From contig NZ_PYLQ01000019.1 in NCBI RefSeq assembly GCF_003024685.1, positions 1 to 49,013 on the forward strand: a stretch of DNA of 49,013 nucleotides, written 5' to 3'. Under the pieces are notes generated by a model. The model saw only the letters and a list, made by a program, of their open reading frames with translations. It was not told where the DNA came from and did not search any database. Of this stretch, positions 2,652-44,437 are shown piece after piece. The DNA is from Faecalibacillus intestinalis. Lineage in GTDB: Bacteria > Bacillota_I > Bacilli_A > Erysipelotrichales > Coprobacillaceae. Within the stretch, counting starts at the first letter, position 1; every line of letters begins with the position of its first letter. The translations under genes and the position numbers were made by a program.

Positions 2652-5600
2652 TTGAATAAATTAGATACATTATATGAACTTCTTGAAAAATCATGTCATG
2701 ATATTATTCAAAGTGAGGAAGCGTGGCTTTCGTTTTTAAGAACATCTGGTTATCTTTATAATTTCAATTTTACCAACCAACTATTGATCTATCAGCAAAG
2801 ACCTGATGCAAAAGCCTGTACGGACTTTGAAACATGGAATAACAGGATGAACAGGTGGATCAAAAAAGGTTCAAAAGGTATAGCTCTTATAGATGATGAT
2901 GGTCGATATACAAAAATAAGATATGTTTTTGATATTGCTGATACAAGGAGCCCACGTAATAGAGAACTTCATTTATGGAGTGTAAAAGAGTCCTTTCATA
3001 AACAATTGATTGATAGAATTGCAAAACAATTTGATATGACTTCAAATGATGAGGATTTAGGAAGTTTCATCAAAGAAATTGCAAAGGAACAGACAGGCTA
3101 TTATGTGGATGATTATTTTAAAAGGTTGATGATATTAAAAGACGGTTCTTTGCTAGAAAGCTATGGGGAAAATGAACTAAAGAATCTTTATAGAAATCTT
3201 TTAGAAAATTCAGTTGCCTACAGTTTAATGAGCAGATGTGATATTGAAACAAAATTTTATTTCGAAGCGGATGATTTTATATCAATAGAACTTTTTAATA
3301 CACCTGAAATGTTGGGAGTGATAGGTAATTCCTTTCAGGAAGAAAGTAATTCACTTTTAAATGTGATTTCTCATATTACAAAAGAATTGATAATTCAAAA
3401 TCGCACATTTGAAAATAACAATCGTTTAGTAGATGATAAAATTGATAAAAATGAAGGGAGTGTTATCAATGGAACAAATCACATACTCAACAGTGGGAGA
3501 TTATCAAATGCCCAATTTGACAGTAGACAAGGAGATACCTTTAGGAAAATACGCAATGATGAAGAAAAAGTATCTGAAGGAACAGCAGCCAGAAATTCTC
3601 TTTTCACTTCGAGTAAGGAATCAACTGAACTCTTACTTAATGAAAACAGAGAAGAAGGCAAACGAAATGATGGAAATGTTGATGAAGGAATTGCTAACGA
3701 AAAATCCAGCACCAAACAAGGAGATACATCAGATGGAATGGGTACAGCATATGAACAACCTTCAAAAAACAGCGGAAGAAATCATTCTGAAGGAAATAAT
3801 CTACAATTAGATTTAGGAATTGAAGAAGTCGATAAGGAAAAGGGTGGCGATAATGTATTGCCACCCTTTGATTTAAGTGATTTACCTCAACTCTTAAGAG
3901 AAGATGTTTCATTGCAACATAGCAAAGAAGAAATTATTCAGTATTTTCATGAGCATACAGATGAAATTGAAAGGGCAAATTATTTAAAAGAAAGTTATGA
4001 TGATACGCTTGTTCAAACATTCAGGTGTCCAGAACACTATGACTATAGTTATCTTGGCTATAAAAAAAGAAATGATGGACTGGACATATGGAGTGGTAAC
4101 TACTTGAATCGGAAAAGCGAATCGTACTTGTCTTTTTTTCAACTTCAAAGTTATCTTGCAAAAATTATTGAAAAAGATGAATATCTTACATCACCTTATG
4201 AAAATGAATCAGGATTAAAAAGGGCATATGAAAACAAAATCATCAATGCGAATGTCTTTTATCATGTTTTTCAGTATAACGATGAACTTTTAGAATCTGC
4301 AGGAAGAATCATTGAGTTTTTTCAAACACATGACAGTGATGAAGAACGTTGTGAATATGTTCAGCATATATATCCTGACAGTATAAGAGAATGGAAAGTT
4401 GATGATGTCATTCTTGGATATGACAGATTAGATGATGGTCTGCATATTTATTTAGGAACTTTTGATAATCAAGTTGTTTCTTATGATTATTCATGGAATT
4501 TTGTTGCCAAAGAAATTGATGGCATGATATTATCTCGATATTTTGCACCAGATATACAGATTCCATCACTGGAGGAACAAAAAAATGCAGTATATGAGAA
4601 TATTCAAAATTTTGAAAATGGAATCTATTTTTCACAACAGGAAATAGATAGAGTATTGACTCGTGGAAGTGGATTTGAAGAAGGCAAATACCGAATCAAT
4701 CAAATGTTTTCAAAAAATACTACATTGAAAGAAAAGGTTCAGTTTCTAAAAAAAGAATATGGAGAGGGTGGAAGTTCTCCTGCAATAGGTTTTATAAATG
4801 TCAATTATGATGCTAAGGGAATGAGTTTAAGTCGTTATCGTGAGATTGGAAAAGATGAAATCAAAATCACTTTAAAATGGGATAAGGTTGCTAAAAGGAT
4901 AGATGAACTTATTCAGCTTGACAGATATCTTAATAAAAAAGAAAAAGAATATTATCCAACATTCTTGCAAAATCAACTTCAACATCAACTCGAATATGAA
5001 AGGAAAAGTATTAATCAAAGTCTTATCCCTGAATCTTCTGATGATTTACAGAATGAAAATATTCCAAAAGAGTATCAATGGAACTTGGGAGACAGTGTAT
5101 ATGTTGGAGCAACGGAATACAAAATTATTGAAAGTGGTAATGAAATAACTTTACAGGATGAAAGCTTCCCATTGTTTTTAGAATATTATTCTAAAGATGA
5201 TTTTCTCAAATTGTTAAAAGAAAACCCATTAAATGACCATTTGTTAAAACCAATAACACAGGAAGTTCAAGATATTAACATTGATAGTTCAAACCATACA
5301 ATCATTAAGAGGTACCTTCCTGACCTTGAAGATCAAATTAAACGTTCTATGATTTATCCCGCATTACGTGATAGTGATACAACAGATGAAGAGGCAGAAG
5401 ATTATATTCGAGAAGAATTGATTTCTATTATGCCTTCTTATGAAACGAAGGATCCTGATTTTTATAACAGATATCTTAATGATGATGAGTTTAGAAATTC
5501 GCTTGTTGATTATTTGATTGATAGAACTTATGAAGATTATTCAATATCTAATGATATTTTCAACAAAGAAAATAAAGAAAATAGACAGTTGTTTGAAAAA

Positions 5601-8600
5601 ATGAAAAAAATAGTACCACGTATTATGAATGAAATCTCTGGTTTTTGTAACATGATAACTGCAAGTGACAATGATCCTTTGATGATTTTATATGATCATG
5701 ATGAAAAAACAATAGACATGTTCCATTATTATGAGGTAAATGGTATAGAAGTAAGTGAGCCTTATATGACCTTTAAAGTTGATTTTTCAAAAGAACTGTT
5801 AGAGCCGATTTCATATAAAAATGACTCAATTGATATTGAAATTTCTTCTGATAATAAAAATAAAGACGCTTTATCAACCAAAGATGATTTAGAAAATTAT
5901 GCAAATCAATGGCTTGATAAACTTTTAGAAAAAAATTATATAGTTGAATCCGAGCAAGTATTTAAGGATAGCATTAACAAAAGAGAAATTTATCATATAG
6001 ATTATGATGGCTCTTTTATTGTTTATACTGACATGCCTTATTCTTTAGTAAAGGAGTTCGCAGATAATTATAATTATATTGTCTCAGATAAGATTCAAAA
6101 AGAAGATATTTTAATTAATCCTGTTCAATCTGAAAAGATAAATTATCAAATCATGGATAAAGATTTAGGTAAAAGAACTCCAAAAGAAAGATACAACGAT
6201 AACGTAGCAGCAATCAGACTGCTTTTTTCTTTAGAAAAACAAGGAAGAAATGCAACAAAAGATGAACAGGATATTCTATCTCGTTATGTTGGCTGGGGAG
6301 GATTAGCAGATGCTTTTGATGAAAGTAAATCGAACTGGGCAAATGAATATCTTGAACTCAAATCATTGTTGAGTGAGGAAGAATATAAAAGTGCAAGAGA
6401 ATCAACACTGACTTCTTTCTATACTTCACCTGTTGTTATTGAAAGTATCTATAAGGCATTGAACAATTTAGGATTTAGACATGGTAATATTTTAGAACCA
6501 TCATGTGGTATTGGTAATTTCTTTGGTATGCTTCCAGATGAAATGAAGGGTTCAAAGATGTATGGTGTGGAGTTGGATTCGATCAGTGGTCGTATTGCAA
6601 AACAGCTTTATCAAAATTCAAATATTGCAATAGAAGGTTATGAGGAAACTAAGTTACCAGATAGTTTTTTCGATGTAGCTGTTGGAAATGTGCCATTTGG
6701 AAACTTTAAGGTCGTAGATAAAAAATATGATAGGCTGAATTTCAATATTCACGATTACTTTTTTGCAAAAACAATCGACAAGGTAAGACCAAATGGAATT
6801 ATTGCATTTGTGACTTCACGTTATACAATGGATAAAAGAAACAGCAATGTAAGAAGATATATCAATGAAAGATGTGAACTTTTAGGTGCCATTCGTTTAC
6901 CTAATGATGCTTTTGGTGATACAAAAGCGGTCAGTGATATTCTGTTTCTTCAAAAAAGAGAGCGTCCTGTTTTAAAAGATGATGATTGGGTTTCAACAGG
7001 GATAACAGAAGAAGGATATGTCATCAATCAATATTATATTGATCACCCTGAAATGATCTTAGGAACAATTGAAAAAACACATGCAATGTATGGTAGAGAG
7101 GATATAACGGTCGTAGGATATGATGAACCTCTCAATGAATCATTGGGAAAAGCTATCTATAATATCAAAGGTCATATAGATGAATTTGATATTGTGGAAG
7201 AAGATGAATATGAGATTGAAAGTATACCTGCCGACCCACAGGTAAGAAATTATTCTTATACTGTTATAGGTGATAAGGTCTATTACAGAGAAAATTCTTT
7301 AATGAATAAAGTTGATGTTGGTGATACAACATTTAAAAGAATAAAAGGCATGATTAGAATACGTGATACTGTCAGAGATTTGATTACCTATCAAAGTGAA
7401 GATTATCCAGAGGAAATGATTGCTAAAAAGCAAAGAGAATTGAATGATTACTATGATGTTTTTACTCAAGCATATGGTTTGCTCAACAGTCGAGGTAATA
7501 CCATTGCATTTAGAGAAGACAGTTCGTTCTATCTTTTATGTTCTTTAGAAAATTTAAACGAAGATGGAACTTTAAAATCTAAAGCAGCCATGTTTACTCA
7601 AAGAACGATTCGTAAAAAGAAAGAGTTTAACAATGTTGCTACAGCTAATGAGGCATTGATGGTGTCTTTAAGTGAAAAAGCAAAAGTCGACATTAATTAT
7701 ATGAGTGAATTGACGGGCATAAGTAATGAAAAAATCAAAGAAGATTTAGATGGTATCATATTTAAAGTCCCTAGTGTTTTAAATGAAGAACAGGAAAAAT
7801 ATGTAACAGCTGATGAATACCTTAGTGGAAATATCAGAGAAAAATTAGAAGTAGCCAAAATGTCAGCAGCAATTGATCCAAAGTATCAAAAGAATGTGGA
7901 GGCTTTAGAAAAGGCAATGCCTAAAGAACTTACAGCCAGTGAAATTGAGGTCAGACTTGGGGCAACTTGGATTCCAGTAGAAATCTATCAGCAGTTTCTT
8001 TATGAATTGCTTGATACACCTAGCTGGGTAAGAAACTATACGAAGCTTTCTTATTCTTCTTATAATGCTAATTGGAATATCAGTGCAAAGAATATGGATA
8101 AAGAAAGCGTAAAAGCTGATAAGACTTATGGAACTTCAAGAGCAAACGCATATAGATTGATGGAAGATTGTCTTAATTTGAAACAGACAAAAATATTTGA
8201 TTATGAATATGATGATGACGGTAATAAACAAGCAATTCTTAATAAAAAGGAAACGATGATTGCTCAACAAAAACAGGATACAATCAAAGAAAGCTTTAAT
8301 AATTGGATTTGGAAAGATCCTCAAAGACGTGAAGAATTAACACAGATTTACAATCGATTATTCAATAGCATAAGACCCCGTGAATATAATGGTGATCATT
8401 TAGAGTTTCCGGGAATGAATCCTGAAATTACTTTACGAAAACATCAGAAAGACGCCATAGCACATATCCTTTATGGTCAAAATGTTCTTCTTGCTCACGT
8501 AGTGGGGGCAGGGAAGACTTTTGAAATGACGGCAGCATGTATGGAATTAAAAAGATTAGGTTTAGCACAAAAGCCAATGTTTGTTGTTCCCAACCATTTA

Positions 8601-10886
8601 GTTGAGCAATGGGGAGCAGAATTTTTGCAACTCTATCCAAGTGCCAACATTCTAGTTGCAACAAAAAGAGATTTTGAAAAGAAAAATAGAAAAAAGCTGT
8701 TTTCTAAAATGGCAACTGGTGAATTTGATGCTATCATCATAGGACATTCACAATTTGAAAAAATACCCATGTCAATTGAAAGGCAGAAGATGAATATTGA
8801 AAATGAAATTGAAGAAATTACAAATGGAATAAGTTCTTTAAAAGCAAACAATGGAGAAAGATTTACAATCAAACAGTTAGAAAGAACCAAGAAAGGGTTA
8901 AAAGCAAAACTCGAAAAACTGAATAAGAATGATAGAAAAGACGATCTAATTACTTTTGAAGAAATAGGAGTGGATCGTCTTTTTGTTGATGAAGCACATT
9001 TTTATAAAAATCTTTTTCTATTTACAAAGATGAATAATGTATCAGGACTTTCTACAACAGATGCACAAAAATCCTCAGATCTTTATTTGAAGTGTAGGTA
9101 CTTGGATGAAATTACAGGAGGAAAAGGGGTTGTTTTCGCAACAGGAACACCTATTTCCAACTCGATGACGGAAATGTATACGATGCAGCGTTATTTGCAG
9201 TATTCTACTCTAGTTAAGCATAATCTTCAGCATTTTGATTGTTGGGCTTCTACTTTTGGAGAAACAAGCACGAGTATCGAACTTGCCCCTGAAGGTTCTG
9301 GATATAGGATGAAGACTCGTTTTTCTAAATTCTTCAATCTTCCTGAATTAATTAATATGTTCAAGGAAGTAGCGGATATTAAGACTGCTGATATGTTGAA
9401 TCTTCCTGTTCCTAATGCTCATTACCAAAATGTGGCAGTTAAACCTTCGGATATTCAAAAAGAACTTGTTGAAAGCTTAGGTGAACGTGCTCAAAAAATT
9501 AGAGATGGAACAGTTGATCCTCATGAGGATAATATGCTTAAAATTACGAACGATGGAAGAAAATTGGCACTTGATCAAAGGCTTATCAATGAACTTTTAC
9601 CAGAAAATAAAAATAGCAAGGTCAATGCCTGTATTAAAAACATATTGAAGATATATCATGAAACAGTGGAAGAAAAAAGTACACAGCTTGTCTTTTGTGA
9701 TATGTCTACTCCTCGTAATGATGCATTCAATGTCTACGATGAAATTAGGAATAAACTATTAGAAGAAGGAATTCCTGAAAGTGAAATTGCATATATCCAT
9801 AATGCAAAAACAGATGTTAAAAAGAAAGAACTCTTTTCTAAGGTTCGAGAAGGTAAAGTGAGAATTTTGATTGGTTCGACAGGTAAAATGGGAGCTGGAA
9901 CAAATGTACAAGAACGCTTGATAGCAATACATGATCTGGATTGTCCTTGGCGACCTTCGGACTTGGAGCAACGTGCAGGAAGAATCGTAAGACAAGGAAA
10001 TAGAAATAAGGATGTTTATATTTATCGTTATGTAACAGAAGGTACATTTGATGCTTATCTATATCAGTTGGTTGAAAATAAACAAAAATTCATAGGGCAA
10101 ATTATGACAAGCAAATCTCCTGTAAGAAGTGCAGAAGATATAGATGAGGCTTCACTTTCTTATGCAGAGATCAAGGCACTAGCGAGTGGAAATCCCAAAG
10201 TGAAAGAAAAGATGGAGCTTGATACAAAAGTATCCAAACTAAAGCTTTCCAAAGCAAACTATCTCTCTCAAAAATATGATTTAGAAGATAGAATTATTAA
10301 ATATTATCCACAAAAGATTAAATCCATTAAGACAAGGATTGAAGGGTTAGAAAATGATATAAAAGATTTGAAACCTCAAAAAGAGTTTCAGCAAATAAAA
10401 ATCAAGGATATGTTGATAGTGGATAAAAAACAGGCGGGAAATGCAATACTTCTTGCCTGTAAGGAATATGATGGTCAGGATAAAAAACATATTGGGGAGT
10501 ACAGAGGATTTGATTTATACATTCAGTTCAACAGTTTAAGTCAATATTACATCATGTCTTTAAAGAAAGAACTTTATTATCCTGTTGAATTAGGAAATGA
10601 TGTTTATGGGAATCTTACAAGAATTGATAATGCTATTGAAAATATTCCAAAAAGTTTAAAAGTGGAAAAGGAACTTCTTCAAAATACATTGCAACAGTTG
10701 CATAATGCTGAACTTGAAGTAAAAAAGCCATTTGAAAAAGAAGATGAATTGAATAATGCCTTAAAGAAACTGTCCAAAATCAATAAAGAACTTGATTTAG
10801 ATAAGAAAGAAAATATTCCAGATACTTCTGTTCAAAAAAACGATACAGGTGTTGATCGTAAATCAAAAGTAAATAGGATGCGATAA
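2652..10886 (+). CDS. giant N6-adenine methylase / SNF2-type helicase fusion
   Basis: A 2744-residue DNA-processing protein typical of Tn1549-like ICEs, thought to protect or remodel incoming element DNA. Start is TTG 2652 behind AGGTGAG; an ATG at 2647 ends after two codons. Domains in order: an ArdC/LtrC-like N-terminus (residues about 1-230, [16 protein letters not shown]); a charged low-complexity linker (about 270-395) overlapped by tnpV; middle segments with repeated DGLxIxxGxY-like units; a methylase with [13 protein letters not shown] (about 1279) and NVPF (about 1345) standing for the NPPF motif; and a helicase with [10 protein letters not shown] (about 1948), DEAH in VDEAHFYKN (about 2111), ATGTPISNS (about 2165) and [11 protein letters not shown] (about 2439). 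A coiled-coil C-terminus follows. No frameshift is seen. Confidence 0.92.
3469..3810 (+). CDS. tnpV: TnpV family protein encoded in another frame inside the giant gene
   Basis: A 113-residue protein lying wholly inside the giant gene in a different frame. It has its own GGGAG 8 nt before ATG 3469. The sequence matches my recollection of the TnpV family along its whole length: [14 protein letters not shown] at the N-terminus, [20 protein letters not shown], then [18 protein letters not shown] and a terminal KEIIYN. TnpV proteins occur in Tn4451-like and conjugative transposons and have no well-established role. A 10-bp hairpin (3839-3869) sits just after the stop. In the main frame this stretch is an Asn/Glu/Gly/Ser-rich linker, as expected for a permissive overprinted segment. 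Confidence 0.75.
3839..3869 (+). terminator. hairpin after tnpV, inside the giant gene
   Basis: AAGGGTGGC-type 10-bp stem (3839-3848 with 3860-3869) and an 11-nt loop. Only a short T tract follows, so termination would be weak. It lies 28 nt after the tnpV stop, consistent with a separate tnpV unit, yet it must be read through to express the giant gene. Confidence 0.45.
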
Positions 10887-12228: not shown

Positions 12229-12567
12229 TTGAACAAGATCAAAAGAAATAAAGAGATAAAAGTAAGATTGTCTTTGATTGAATTAGAAAATTTAAATAAA
12301 TGTGTTAAGAAAACAGGACTGTCAAGAGAAGAATATATTCGTACATTGATAAGTGGATATGTTCCAGCACCAAGAATCAGTGATGATGTTAAAGAAATTA
12401 TTAAGCAGTTAAGAATGATAGGTAATAACTTAAATCAGATTGCAGTTATTGGTTATAAAACTGGAACAATTGATATTTTAAAATATAAGAGAAACTGTTC
12501 AGAACTTGAAAAAAATGTTCAATTAATATTAAACAATGTTACTGAACCTACAAGGATGGAAAAGTAA
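12229..12567 (+). CDS. mobC: MobC relaxosome accessory protein
   Basis: A 112-residue relaxosome protein that helps the relaxase open oriT. Start is TTG 12229 with GGAG 9 nt upstream. The N-terminus has the ribbon-helix-helix pattern IKVRLSLIELENLNKCVKKTGLSREEYIRTLI (shown here across two segments: residues about 10-23 and 24-42). The C-terminal half has the typical MobC motif IIKQLRMIGNNLNQIA (about 63-78). It lies between oriT and the relaxase gene, with the relaxase ATG 2 nt after its stop, implying coupled translation. Confidence 0.85.
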   Translation: MNKIKRNKEIKVRLSLIELENLNKCVKKTGLSREEYIRTLISGYVPAPRISDDVKEIIKQLRMIGNNLNQIAVIGYKTGTIDILKYKRNCSELEKNVQLILNNVTEPTRMEK

Positions 12568-14668: not shown

Positions 14669-15571
14669 ATGAGTGATATATATAATTTATTAAACAATGC
14701 AGCTAATGAGAAAGTTGAAGAAAAACCTAGAATTCCTCCAGAGGAATATGCCAAACAAAAACAACAAAAAAGACAGAATCTTTATGATATGGCTGAGAAG
14801 CAAACACATGAAGTTGTTTCTTCTCCACAAAATTATCTGAACTATTTAGAAATGCAATCAAAATTTGGTTATACTGTTACCAATACACTCTTGGTCATGG
14901 CACAATGTCCACAGGCAACACTGTTAAAAGATAACAATCGTTGGGTAGAAGAAAAAAAGTATGTAAAAAAAGGAGTAAAAGGAATTGGAATATTAGAGCC
15001 TAAAGGTGAGTATCAAGGAAATGATGGCGTGATAAGAACCAACTATGATGTTAAATATGTTTTTGATATTTCTCAATTAAACAGACCATACAGAATGAAA
15101 AAACAAAATTTGTCTGTTAGAAAAATCATCAGCGGTTTAGTTTATCAATCACCTGTTAAAATGCAAATGGTTGACAATACTGAAAATGGTTCGCTAGTAC
15201 AATACTCTCCAGATAATCAAATGATCTACTATGCAGACGGGATGAGTCCGACAGATTTAATGGAGGGTTTAGCAAGAGAATATTGCTATGTAGAATTTGA
15301 AAGCCAATATGGAAATGTTGACAGAACAGAGGATGCCTTTATGGTAAAAAGTGCTGCCTATATTCTTTGTAAAAAATTGAACATTCCAGTTTCAAACGTT
15401 GATTTCGCAAATGAAGTAAAAAATTATTTTGAAGGAATGGATTCTCGAGATACCAAAGAAGAATTAAGCAATATTAAAAGTATTGCAGATGAAGTGAGCA
15501 ATCGAGCTGAAAGAGGAATCTATAGATTGCAACAGGAAAGAGATAATGCAAACAGAGGAGAAGAACGTTAA
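14669..15571 (+). CDS. ArdC/LtrC-like single-stranded-DNA-binding protein
   Basis: A 300-residue protein with the ArdC N-terminal type domain: NYLNYLEMQSKFGYTVTNTL and WVEEKKYVKKGVKGIGIL (about 49-110), then YDVKYVFDISQL. The same fold opens the giant methylase/helicase protein in this ICE. Relatives bind single-stranded DNA and can protect incoming DNA from restriction. Here the C-terminal metalloprotease HExxH motif of some ArdC proteins is not evident, so a pure binding role is more likely. ATG 14669 is 3 nt after the PcfB stop. Confidence 0.75.
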   Translation: MSDIYNLLNNAANEKVEEKPRIPPEEYAKQKQQKRQNLYDMAEKQTHEVVSSPQNYLNYLEMQSKFGYTVTNTLLVMAQCPQATLLKDNNRWVEEKKYVKKGVKGIGILEPKGEYQGNDGVIRTNYDVKYVFDISQLNRPYRMKKQNLSVRKIISGLVYQSPVKMQMVDNTENGSLVQYSPDNQMIYYADGMSPTDLMEGLAREYCYVEFESQYGNVDRTEDAFMVKSAAYILCKKLNIPVSNVDFANEVKNYFEGMDSRDTKEELSNIKSIADEVSNRAERGIYRLQQERDNANRGEER

Positions 15572-15771
15572 TGGGGTTATTTAAGAATAAAGAGCCAACG
15601 GTTTTGATTAGAGTAACGGACTTTGAAAGAAGAATAATTATTACTGCTTTGAGAAATTTAAGAGACAAGCAAATAAAAGAAAATAAGGATTATGATTATA
15701 TTGAATCGATTATGGACAAGGCAGCAATAGCTGATATATCCAAATCAAAAAAATCATATGAGGAAAGATAA
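15571..15771 (+). CDS. small conserved-type ICE protein (66 aa)
   Basis: A 66-residue soluble protein whose ATG overlaps the stop of the ArdC-like gene by one base (TAATG) and whose 3' end overlaps virD4 by 14 nt. Tight coupling on both sides argues it is real. It is highly charged, with FERRIIITALRNLRDKQIKENKDYDYIE suggesting a helical pair. I know no function. Genes of this size commonly precede virD4 in this ICE family. Confidence 0.6.
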   Translation: MGLFKNKEPTVLIRVTDFERRIIITALRNLRDKQIKENKDYDYIESIMDKAAIADISKSKKSYEER

Positions 15772-19488: not shown

Positions 19489-19926
19489 ATGGAAGTAAAA
19501 ATTAATAAAGAGATAAGAGAATATACAGAAGGCATTTTCTTAGGATTATCCCTAAGACAATGCTTTTTTTCTTTTTTAGCGTGTGTAATGGCAGTTATAT
19601 TTTATTTTTTATTCATTGATCATTTAGGAATGGAGATAACAAGTTGGTTGTGTATGATTTCAGCTGCACCATTTGCAGCACTTGGATTTATTAGATTTCA
19701 AGGAATGAATGCTGAACAGATTGTTATATGTGCGATACGCTCACTATTGATTAAACAGCATAATTTGATATTTAAACCACAAAATTTATATTACGAATAT
19801 TTAAAAGAATTTTTAGAAATTAAAAGAAAGGAGTCTATTGATCCATATGATAAAAAGTTACGAAAGATTGAAAAAGCAAAACAAAGAAAAAATAAGTGTT
19901 CCCAAAAGTGCACAGGATCTAATTGA
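19489..19926 (+). CDS. PrgI family membrane protein
   Basis: A 145-residue PrgI-type protein, the small membrane partner encoded before VirB4 in Gram-positive conjugation systems. ATG 19489 follows GGAAGGAG. The N-terminal strand KINKEIREYTEGIFLGLSLRQ and two adjacent membrane helices (about 25-43 and 48-66) match the family. The C-terminal soluble tail ends in a basic segment. The last 89 nt overlap virB4 in a different frame. Confidence 0.85.
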   Translation: MEVKINKEIREYTEGIFLGLSLRQCFFSFLACVMAVIFYFLFIDHLGMEITSWLCMISAAPFAALGFIRFQGMNAEQIVICAIRSLLIKQHNLIFKPQNLYYEYLKEFLEIKRKESIDPYDKKLRKIEKAKQRKNKCSQKCTGSN

Positions 19927-22999: not shown

Positions 23000-23389
23000 A
23001 TGAAGTATTTTAACAATGAACATAAAAAAGCATATCATTTAGCTATAGAAAAAAGTGGAATTAATGATGTTTATCATCAATCGCTATTTTATACATTAAC
23101 CATTGATAAAGATTGCAGAGAGCATATTAATGATCTTTATGATTTTAATAGAAATAGTATTAAACTGTCAGGACTAGACAAATCATGGCATACTTCAGGA
23201 TCAATTAATACAACGCTGATGGGTTTCAATTTGTTCAATGGTTATGTAGATGAAAAAAATGCAAAAGTTTCAACACCTTATGAACTGTTTTCATGTGAAT
23301 ACAGTTCTTTTTTTATGGAGTCAATAAAATTAAGATATCCTGAATATTATAAATCTAGAAAAGATAAGAGTTTTGATAACTGTTTATGA
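23000..23389 (+). CDS. DUF6075-like protein
   Basis: A 129-residue protein after GAGGGGA, matching my recollection of DUF6075 proteins in Firmicutes ICEs: NDVYHQSLFYTLTIDKDCRE, LDKSWHTSGSINTTLMGFNLF, and a C-terminal PYELFSCEYSSFFMESIKLR with LRYPEYYKSR. No enzymatic motif is evident. Its stop overlaps the next start (ATGA), so the two are translationally coupled. Confidence 0.7.
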   Translation: MKYFNNEHKKAYHLAIEKSGINDVYHQSLFYTLTIDKDCREHINDLYDFNRNSIKLSGLDKSWHTSGSINTTLMGFNLFNGYVDEKNAKVSTPYELFSCEYSSFFMESIKLRYPEYYKSRKDKSFDNCL

Positions 23390-41515: not shown

Positions 41516-44437
41516 GTGGAAAAAAATAAAATTTTATGTCTAGATAATTTCTATGTAAGATATGCAAACTTATCATTTGATAAATTTGAAAAGGTAGCAA
41601 ATCAAAATAACTATACGTTATTTAATGAATTTTATAATAATACATTTAAACAAGATATATTATTAACATCTTCATCATTGTATGCAACTCTTTCTAAAGG
41701 TTGCAAAGATGATAATATATGCTCTCTTTTAAAATATATAATACGTTCATCTACACGTTGTACACCATATAGTTCGTTAAGTGGAGTAGGATTGGGAAGA
41801 TTTACAAACAAAAACAATTATAACATAGATATTCCTAAATTATATTTTAGGGTAGATAATGAATGGTTGCTACCAATTTTACCTAAATTAGAACAAGAAA
41901 TACGTAATGACATTTACGTTGTTAAAAATAAAGATATAGAAGAAAATGATAAAAAAATTGTTAACCACTGGGTTACACATTATTATTTAGAAACAAACAA
42001 GAATACGAATGAAGTAATTATTAATAATACAAGTGTTGTAAAAAAGGTATTAGAATTAACACAATCATATATAAAAAAAGAAGATTTAATAAATAATCTA
42101 TTAGAAATATATGGCTCAGAAAGATTAAGTGATATAAGTAAATTGCTTGATCAACTACAAAAATATGAGATTTTGGTAAGCAATTTACGTTTTTGCCCAC
42201 TTATAAATGATCCATTGAAAGAAATAATTAAAACAGGAGAAAAATTTAATTATCATTCTCCATTACTAGAAAAACTAGGAAAATTCTATTATGATTTATG
42301 CAATCTAAATATAGATTTTTCAATTCCAAAATATGAAAGATTGATAAATGAAATGAAAGATGTATATAATTGTAAAAATATAATTAGAGTTGATAGTTAT
42401 TATGAATCTGTTTTAGATATTAATATTGAAGAAAAAAAGAAATTAGAGGATTATGCAAATTTTATAAATAGTTTTTCTAATGATGAAGATAAGTACATTA
42501 ATCATTGTAAATCTTTTATTGATAAGTTTGGGAATGTAAGGGTTCCTGTAAAATATGCATTTGATAAATATAAAGGAATAGGATTACCAACTAAAATATT
42601 TCGAAATGAAGAAATTTCTGATAACGGAAAAAGGCTTATACATTATCTTAATGAAAATATAAAAAGTGGTAGTGTTATAGATCTATCAAATTTTATGGTT
42701 GAGGATAAAAATAAAGAGAAATATAGAACTAACATGGAATTGGCGTTCTATCCAATTTTAAACGGAACAGAATTAAATTATATTACTAGTCCATTTTGTG
42801 CTTCAAATAATTTATTTGAATCATTTGGTAGATTTAATTATATATTCAGAGAAAATAATTCTAAATTTTTTAATAAAGAGGATATTGATTATGTAGAGAT
42901 AACATATATTCCTAAAAATAGTAGAGTGCAAAACGTGATAAATTGTACAACAGATTGTAATTACTATTTAGAATATACAACCAATACTAATATTCTTGGG
43001 AAAACTAGATTAACCCTTGATGATATTAGTGTTAGTTCTAACGGAAATGAATTTTTTTATTATAACAATATAACAGGAAAACAAATTGCTTTTAACGCAA
43101 ATAATAAAGCACTACGAGATTTTATGCCACCAATTTTAAATTTTATTCTTGATTCTTCTCAAAGAAAAATAAAAAATAATTTGTATTTTTTTAATTTGAT
43201 TAATAGATGGTTAGAAGGATTTGATATTCTACCAGAAATTCGATATAAGAACGTAGTAGTTAGTCCACAAAAATGGAAATTGGATAACAATAAGATAAAT
43301 CTTACAAAAAAACAAAGTTATGAGATTTTTTGTACAAAATTGGACGAAAAAATAAAAACAGATCAGTTGCCTAGTAAGGTGTTTTTTGAATATATGGATA
43401 ACAGACTTTTGTTAGATTTAAATAATGATTTACATAAAAAAATATTATTTCAACAAATTAAATCTAGTCCAAAAGGAATATTAGTAAAAAACTATTTTAC
43501 TGATAATGACTTGATTGTTATAAATGATAGCGGAGAAAAACATGTTTCGGAGCTTATTTTTCAATTTGCTGGAGATAATACTAATTATACAATTCATGAG
43601 ACGTTGTCCTTTAGTAAAGAAAGTAATCGTACCTTATTTCCTTTTAACGAATGGACTTATTTTAATATTTATGTAAAGGATTATTTTCAAGATGAATTTT
43701 TAACAAACTATCTTATGCCATTTTTATTACATGAAAAAACTTATTCATTTATAAGAGAATATTTCTATATAAGATATATAGATGAACTTCCACATATTAG
43801 ATTAAGAGTAAAATCTTCGTATATTAATAAATTTATGGTACATTTTAACGAATTTATTTTAAAGTGTAAAGATATGGGATATGTAGAGAAATATTCTATT
43901 AATGTATATGAAAGAGAGACAGAAAGATATGGTTATGGAAATATTGAAAGATTTGAAAAAATGTTTTGCGAAAATACATATTTTTCATTGGAATTGTTAT
44001 ATTTATTAACAAAAAAAAGAATTGATTACACCAAAGAAAGTCTATATATTATGACAGTGCTTTATATATTGTTTAATTTACATCAAGATGTTTCACAAGT
44101 TTTAAGTATGTATAAGACTATAAATTTTAATAAAAGGGAATATCAAAAAAAATACAAATTTATCGAAAACATTATGTACCCGGATGAAAATTTTATTAAA
44201 TTAAGAAAAAGCTCTTTAGGTACAAAACTATATAGTATATTAGAGAATAGCAATAATCAAGTGTTGGAATATTTCAATTGTGAAAACTATGATAATGACC
44301 AGTTGATAAGTTATTTTCATATGTTTTTTAATCGCTTATTAGGAATTGATAGACGAAAAGAAAATGAATTAAACTGTTATGTTGAAAGGATATTTTATGG
44401 AATTACAAGTAGACAAAAATATTCTAAAACCAAATAG
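41516..44437 (+). CDS. lanB: full-length class I lanthipeptide dehydratase (LanB)
   Basis: A 973-residue LanB that dehydrates Ser/Thr of the precursors using glutamyl-tRNA. GTG 41516 follows GGGGTG; an overlapping ATG at 41514 stops soon. The glutamylation domain opens with the usual block IIRSSTRCTPYSSLSGVGLGRF (shown in part, about 72-93; RxTPxxxxxGvxxG). The C-terminal SpaB-type elimination domain runs from about 718 (WTYFNIYVKDYFQDEFL) through YIRYIDELPHIRLRVK and YGYGNIERFEKMF to about 960. Both domains are present, unlike split thiopeptide enzymes. The 3' end overlaps the lanC start by 41 nt. Confidence 0.93.
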   Translation: MEKNKILCLDNFYVRYANLSFDKFEKVANQNNYTLFNEFYNNTFKQDILLTSSSLYATLSKGCKDDNICSLLKYIIRSSTRCTPYSSLSGVGLGRFTNKNNYNIDIPKLYFRVDNEWLLPILPKLEQEIRNDIYVVKNKDIEENDKKIVNHWVTHYYLETNKNTNEVIINNTSVVKKVLELTQSYIKKEDLINNLLEIYGSERLSDISKLLDQLQKYEILVSNLRFCPLINDPLKEIIKTGEKFNYHSPLLEKLGKFYYDLCNLNIDFSIPKYERLINEMKDVYNCKNIIRVDSYYESVLDINIEEKKKLEDYANFINSFSNDEDKYINHCKSFIDKFGNVRVPVKYAFDKYKGIGLPTKIFRNEEISDNGKRLIHYLNENIKSGSVIDLSNFMVEDKNKEKYRTNMELAFYPILNGTELNYITSPFCASNNLFESFGRFNYIFRENNSKFFNKEDIDYVEITYIPKNSRVQNVINCTTDCNYYLEYTTNTNILGKTRLTLDDISVSSNGNEFFYYNNITGKQIAFNANNKALRDFMPPILNFILDSSQRKIKNNLYFFNLINRWLEGFDILPEIRYKNVVVSPQKWKLDNNKINLTKKQSYEIFCTKLDEKIKTDQLPSKVFFEYMDNRLLLDLNNDLHKKILFQQIKSSPKGILVKNYFTDNDLIVINDSGEKHVSELIFQFAGDNTNYTIHETLSFSKESNRTLFPFNEWTYFNIYVKDYFQDEFLTNYLMPFLLHEKTYSFIREYFYIRYIDELPHIRLRVKSSYINKFMVHFNEFILKCKDMGYVEKYSINVYERETERYGYGNIERFEKMFCENTYFSLELLYLLTKKRIDYTKESLYIMTVLYILFNLHQDVSQVLSMYKTINFNKREYQKKYKFIENIMYPDENFIKLRKSSLGTKLYSILENSNNQVLEYFNCENYDNDQLISYFHMFFNRLLGIDRRKENELNCYVERIFYGITSRQKYSKTK

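Follow-up and report, generated by a model that had tools for sequence, protein, structure and literature searches.

Can a complete small gene of mobile elements be encoded inside a giant gene, in another reading frame, or is its apparent presence a by-product of the larger coding sequence? This question is raised by a 49,013-nt stretch of DNA from Faecalibacillus intestinalis (contig NZ_PYLQ01000019.1), hereafter the window. An open reading frame of 2,744 aa on its plus strand (2652 to 10886) entirely contains a second one on the same strand (3433/3469 to 3810), which from the ATG at 3469 to a TAG encodes 113 aa in the +1 frame relative to its host. A first-pass annotation had described the product as a full-length TnpV-like protein. 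The translation from 3469 bears this out, as it matched the Pfam TnpV family PF14198 over model positions 1-111 of 111, with an E-value of 4.8e-29 and a score of 101 bits against a curated cut-off of 27. Over the overlap in the window, neither the tnpV frame nor the host frame contained a stop codon and the third frame contained 17. We consider tnpV, with a probability of about 0.93, to be a genuine gene with its own translation start, located inside the linker that joins the header of the giant to its core. Sequence comparison shows that both frames are open and under selection, that the host frame is kept free of stops, that the internal Shine-Dalgarno (SD) site and ATG are conserved and that the architecture is fixed.

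The giant 'polyvalent' gene consists of a header, a disordered linker, a central part, a methylase-like region and a SNF2 helicase core. Its Pfam matches were SNF2, ResIII, Helicase_C and DUF6908; Methyltransf_25 gave a weak match (E 0.097), and a relative (L038) matched N6_Mtase with an E-value of 3e-9. The header domain (2652 to 3413, plus strand; residues 1-254), found in the giants with a nested tnpV, is predicted to be folded, with AlphaFold block means mostly above 80, and has conserved columns in the alignment of relatives. Neither a Pfam match nor a PDB fold match was obtained for it; its motifs may resemble those of the ArdC-N header domain. A stand-alone 300-aa relative of the header with 29% identity is encoded in the same element (14669-15571). 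The giant with its SNF2-type helicase domains lies in an element of the integrative/conjugative type, which also encodes a relaxase (at 12536), a T4SS coupling protein (at 15758), a TraG-type ATPase (at 19838) and a CHAP/lysozyme protein (at 23386). Just 5' of the giant, a protein with five SpaA-type prealbumin-like domains is encoded (71-1795). Elsewhere in the window a lantibiotic dehydratase gene (41516-44437) is located 3' of ABC transporter and glycosyltransferase genes, and this region is likely a lanthipeptide cargo cluster.

The first-pass annotation had also pointed to a good ribosome site, and this was found to be a general property of the nested copies. In the window the SD site GAAGGGAG (3453 to 3460, plus strand) lies 8 nt 5' of the tnpV ATG. 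Across relatives an ATG start was present in 92 of 93 nested copies and an SD core in 91 of 92, compared with 5.4% of the 11,266 ATGs found elsewhere in the host open reading frames. The consensus in relatives was mostly GAAAGGAG, at a near-fixed spacing to the ATG, and the host frame reads E-R/G-S there. In 51 in-phase contexts the Glu preceding the SD core was encoded by GAA 49 times; in the remainder of the hosts GAA accounts for 55% of Glu codons. A count of AGG codons at the same site was discarded as circular because the motif had been selected on AGG, a problem that does not affect the GAA preference. The conservation of SD site and ATG suggests that translation initiates at 3469.

Relatives were collected by searching 196 related genomes with the N-terminal 583 aa of the giant, and were found in 26 of them. 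At essentially all loci that covered both header and linker and had an undisrupted host frame, the tnpV frame was open and scored as TnpV or TnpV-like. The set was enlarged by a TnpV search of 392 genomes of the phylum and by a scan of named genomes and viral contigs; the viral contigs gave no match to the single TnpV of the window and 23 loci when an alignment was used as the query. The resulting census of 232 loci comprised 128 TnpV domains nested in a giant homologue, all without a host-frame stop, 111 free-standing domains without a host, and zero intermediates between the two states. Removal of duplicates left 160 distinct full-length copies, 93 nested and 67 free. The frame offset relative to the host was identical in all 93 nested copies, and tnpV started between host codons 232 and 329, with one exception at codon 140. 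Host-frame stops were absent from 93/93 nested copies and numbered 7.6 on average in the 67 free ones (range 2-22); the third frame of the nested copies contained a mean of 12.9. A complete open reading frame thus lies within another one, in a different frame, and both are open in homologues, which is what defines an embedded gene.

Giants with a nested TnpV occurred in Clostridia, Bacilli, Erysipelotrichaceae and Collinsella. All of the intact header-bearing methylase/helicase giants examined (101/101) contained the nested open reading frame, a count that is biased because many loci were retrieved through TnpV; the header-first search of 196 genomes is the less biased set. Nested TnpV was absent from helicase giants of the same family that had no detectable header (L240, L241 and the Campylobacter coli locus L253), and stand-alone header proteins of ~300 aa were without TnpV. 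Just 5' of many giants, at ~5.5-8.9 kb in the loci L092-L171, a header paralogue of ~1000 aa was observed, which scored far lower for the header and lacked TnpV. The 52 open reading frames recorded without tnpV are this lower-scoring paralogue and were left out as exceptions. At L014/L032 (G036:C1, ~2785490) an apparent frameshift within the overlap disrupts the host and TnpV frames at once.

Codon-position substitution patterns, which had been suggested as a check on the overlap, were determined in both frames from 27 independent pairs. Outside the overlap, host codon positions 1/2/3 differed at.052/.033/.161 upstream and.072/.051/.166 downstream of it. Within the overlap the values were about.10/.054/.034, as expected for a coding sequence translated in the TnpV frame, so that the pattern switches from host to TnpV inside it. 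Doubly synonymous changes in the overlap occurred at a rate of.041 (a small class of 17 substitutions), and changes synonymous in TnpV and nonsynonymous in the host at.0203. The converse class, nonsynonymous in TnpV and synonymous in the host, occurred at.00197, about 5% of the value for doubly synonymous changes. By bootstrap over pairs, omega was.048 (.023-.106) for TnpV and.50 (.33-.86) for the stop-free host frame in the overlap, indicating purifying selection in the embedded as well as in the containing frame. TnpV-synonymous changes that would create a host stop were observed 0 times, against 23-46 expected. As a control, the flank was given a fictitious second frame, and this resulted in the opposite site-class pattern. 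These data indicate that TnpV is the dominant, strongly purified frame, and that the host frame is weakly constrained yet intolerant of stops. The true overlapping coding proposed by the first-pass annotation is therefore upheld. Stop codons in the tnpV frame of close homologues, together with a lack of purifying selection on it, had been named as the evidence against it; instead, the frame was open even where the giants share only 26-46% identity, and TnpV-nonsynonymous changes were rare.

The same nested layout was found on plasmids of Enterococcus faecalis and E. hirae and on a Virgibacillus plasmid. None of these had a stop in the host frame, the third frame contained 12-18, and most had an AAAGGA-type site. 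In the Enterococcus clade the codon-position rates flipped from.281/.181/.387 to.253/.115/.075 in the overlap. A divergent 'class 2' nested open reading frame of ~135-143 aa, for which the Pfam TnpV model gave a poor match or none, has its own purine-rich site and showed the same behaviour (for example.09/.05/.30 upstream and.17/.05/.04 within the overlap). Class 2 is a candidate for a new family beside PF14198; in L025, L026, L028 and L293-L295 it has an additional N-terminal segment EFSxxExTDEI. The flip was thus seen independently in Clostridia, in Enterococcus plasmids and in class-2 open reading frames. Chance open reading frames are common in other frames of long genes, and several occur in the window, so the giant alone might be coding and the similarity to TnpV be fossil or compositional in origin. 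We give this next to no credence in view of the PF14198 match (E 5e-29), the SD core in 91/92 copies, the TnpV omega of ~0.05 and the codon pattern flipped in three separate groups.

Public annotation of these loci differs between records. On the E. faecalis plasmid pEFM9-2 (NZ_CP098745.1), TnpV (7001-7342) is listed together with a shortened SNF2 protein that starts at 7357; on pKUB3006-2 the corresponding region is a single SNF2 protein of ~2096 aa; and on a Monoglobus plasmid, where the giant is split in two open reading frames, the record lists TnpV and omits the giant. The records examined give TnpV or the full giant, never both, which points to an annotation blind spot. Taken literally, the pEFM9-2 record would mean that the only true products are TnpV and a shorter helicase 3' of it, with no translation of the host frame through the overlap, and the weak amino-acid constraint on the host in the overlap would fit. 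This is very unlikely, as host stops numbered 0 in 93 nested copies against 2-22 in free TnpVs and changes creating them 0 against 23-46 expected, a conserved upstream header is in frame with the core at intact loci, and the pKUB3006-2 annotation reads through the region as one protein.

A downstream hairpin had been noted as well. It is present in the window just 3' of tnpV (3839 to 3869, plus strand; 10-bp stem, 11-nt loop), has no T-tract and was not called terminator-like. It was not conserved across relatives, and a conserved function in termination or regulation was rejected. The hairpin could also be taken to mean that RNA structure, or a DNA site such as a transfer or recombination site, is under constraint with no second protein involved, and in Streptococcus suis, IMEs and related cargo that carry tnpV are known to integrate in snf2 genes of ICEs (PMC9815147). 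Such an explanation is extremely improbable, since the constraint tracks the codon positions of TnpV, amino-acid similarity persists at 30-40% identity, frame and position are the same everywhere, the hairpin is not conserved and the window does not contain the S. suis insertion repeat TTTTGCGGACA. A relic of an IME insertion was considered for the locus and rejected on the same absence of the repeat.

The structures predicted for the two products are of opposite kinds. The AlphaFold model of TnpV had a pLDDT of 91.8 and consisted of a beta-hairpin and four helices. The N-terminal 583 aa of the giant were predicted to be folded at residues 1-254 and after 401, and the intervening disordered linker (3414 to 3854, plus strand; residues 255-401), with pLDDT below 50, contains the overlap (residues 273-386). 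The host frame had been called a low-complexity linker, which agrees with a content of 78% DEKRSTNQGP in the overlap compared with ~57-60% in the remaining protein. One frame is thus predicted to yield a folded protein and the other a disordered tether that is nearly coextensive with the overlap. For the TnpV fold, Foldseek found no significant match in PDB or BFVD. A likeness to lambda GamS reached a VIA-align Z of only 4.1-4.6, with all matches below Z 5, and was not trusted. Directly after the tnpV stop (3802-3850 in the window; also in L033, L056 and L121) the host frame often reads QL(S/T)LF, QMSLF or QLTLNLF, sequences reminiscent of the motif by which bacterial proteins bind the beta sliding clamp.

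In the TnpV tree, which is based on 114 columns, nested and free copies formed large blocks and were interleaved, with 9 changes of state (shuffled mean 37), at least 6 of them forced by well-supported branches. Some free TnpVs fell inside nested clades and had kept the TnpV frame, with 3-9 stops in the former host frame, as would be expected if TnpV functions independently. A free TnpV (L229) and a nested one (L013) from the same genome shared 75% amino acid identity, and the free copy retained the TnpV codon pattern, its former host frame containing 9 stops. Beside such escaped copies no remnant of a giant was found beyond a 44-aa match within one TnpV itself, and no unfused arrangement of header, tnpV and core was found. 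For the origin of the locus we lean slightly towards a row of header, tnpV and methylase/helicase genes that would have fused through tnpV. Loss of stops may have let translation cross tnpV in its stop-poorer +2 frame, joining header to core, with tnpV retained in its own frame; some nested copies would later have escaped as free genes. The interleaving of nested and free copies would also fit a dual-coding locus whose nesting arose several times or spreads by recombination, as opposed to a single nesting followed by escapes. We regard this as fairly unlikely, because the shared frame offset and host position are best explained by a single origin and the tree has only 114 columns.

Under the reading of tnpV as a genuine nested gene, some ribosomes on the giant's mRNA would make the giant and others would start at the internal SD site and make TnpV. 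One transcript would then yield both proteins, and both genes would move together in conjugation. The overlap may be tolerated because the host peptide there is merely a disordered tether joining the header and the remainder. Free TnpVs adjoin serine recombinases or relaxases (families judged from sequence, with no profile scan). Two giants that contain a nested TnpV are followed after 16 nt by a second, free TnpV gene (L121 at 17116, L055 at 17107). TnpV is therefore likely to function in mobilisation. Tentatively, it may act together with the recombinase, the relaxase or the giant in excision or transfer and not as an enzyme. The suggestion of the first-pass annotation that the overlap explains why TnpV is so common in such ICEs holds only in part, because 67 of the 160 distinct full-length copies are free-standing.

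The nearest known case is comS, which encodes 46 aa. Like tnpV, it specifies a small protein, in this case a regulatory one, in another frame of a giant operon gene (srfAB of Bacillus subtilis; PMC12915044). It differs in being much smaller and known from one operon type, whereas tnpV encodes a 113-aa Pfam family, occurs in giants of several taxa and has free relatives. The free-standing TnpV of Tn4451-type elements belongs to the same family PF14198, and free copies are likewise located in mobile elements; for this TnpV an Xis-like (excisionase) role has merely been postulated (PMC3158075). In contrast to it, the nested tnpV is embedded in another gene whose frame has been purged of stops. 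The host giant resembles polyvalent proteins with a DNA methylase-SWI2/SNF2 helicase dyad, with which it shares an N-terminal header, a methylase-like region, an SNF2 ATPase and location in a conjugative element (Iyer et al., 2017; PMC5512222); that paper makes no mention of TnpV or of overlapping frames. Embedded open reading frames have also been proposed as real genes in the long antisense overlapping genes of E. coli O157:H7, and overlapping genes have been characterised as taxonomically restricted (PMC9927249). Those cases are antisense, whereas tnpV is on the same strand, old and widespread, with selection measured in both frames. A literature search whose reach included few subscription papers found no prior description of a nested or overlapping tnpV. 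The nested tnpV thus appears to be a new, unusually old and widespread same-strand embedded gene, of which an earlier report may exist.

Established long embedded overlapping genes are few in bacteria, and the tnpV case spans gut Firmicutes and Enterococcus plasmids, with built-in controls in the form of free copies, header-less giants and a divergent class of open reading frames. At this locus selection has been measured for both frames of the same DNA, with a clean division of labour between order and disorder. We hold it an even chance that this is an ancient dual-coding locus, in which TnpV, as a small mobilisation protein, would be obligatorily co-encoded with the conjugative giant in at least Clostridia and Bacilli and be as old as the fusion of header and core. 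The overlap would then be a built-in device for co-delivery or ratio matching, and the linker simply the out-of-frame reading of tnpV. The locus also makes TnpV, an orphan family associated with elements that carry resistance, directly testable as the partner of a conjugative giant.
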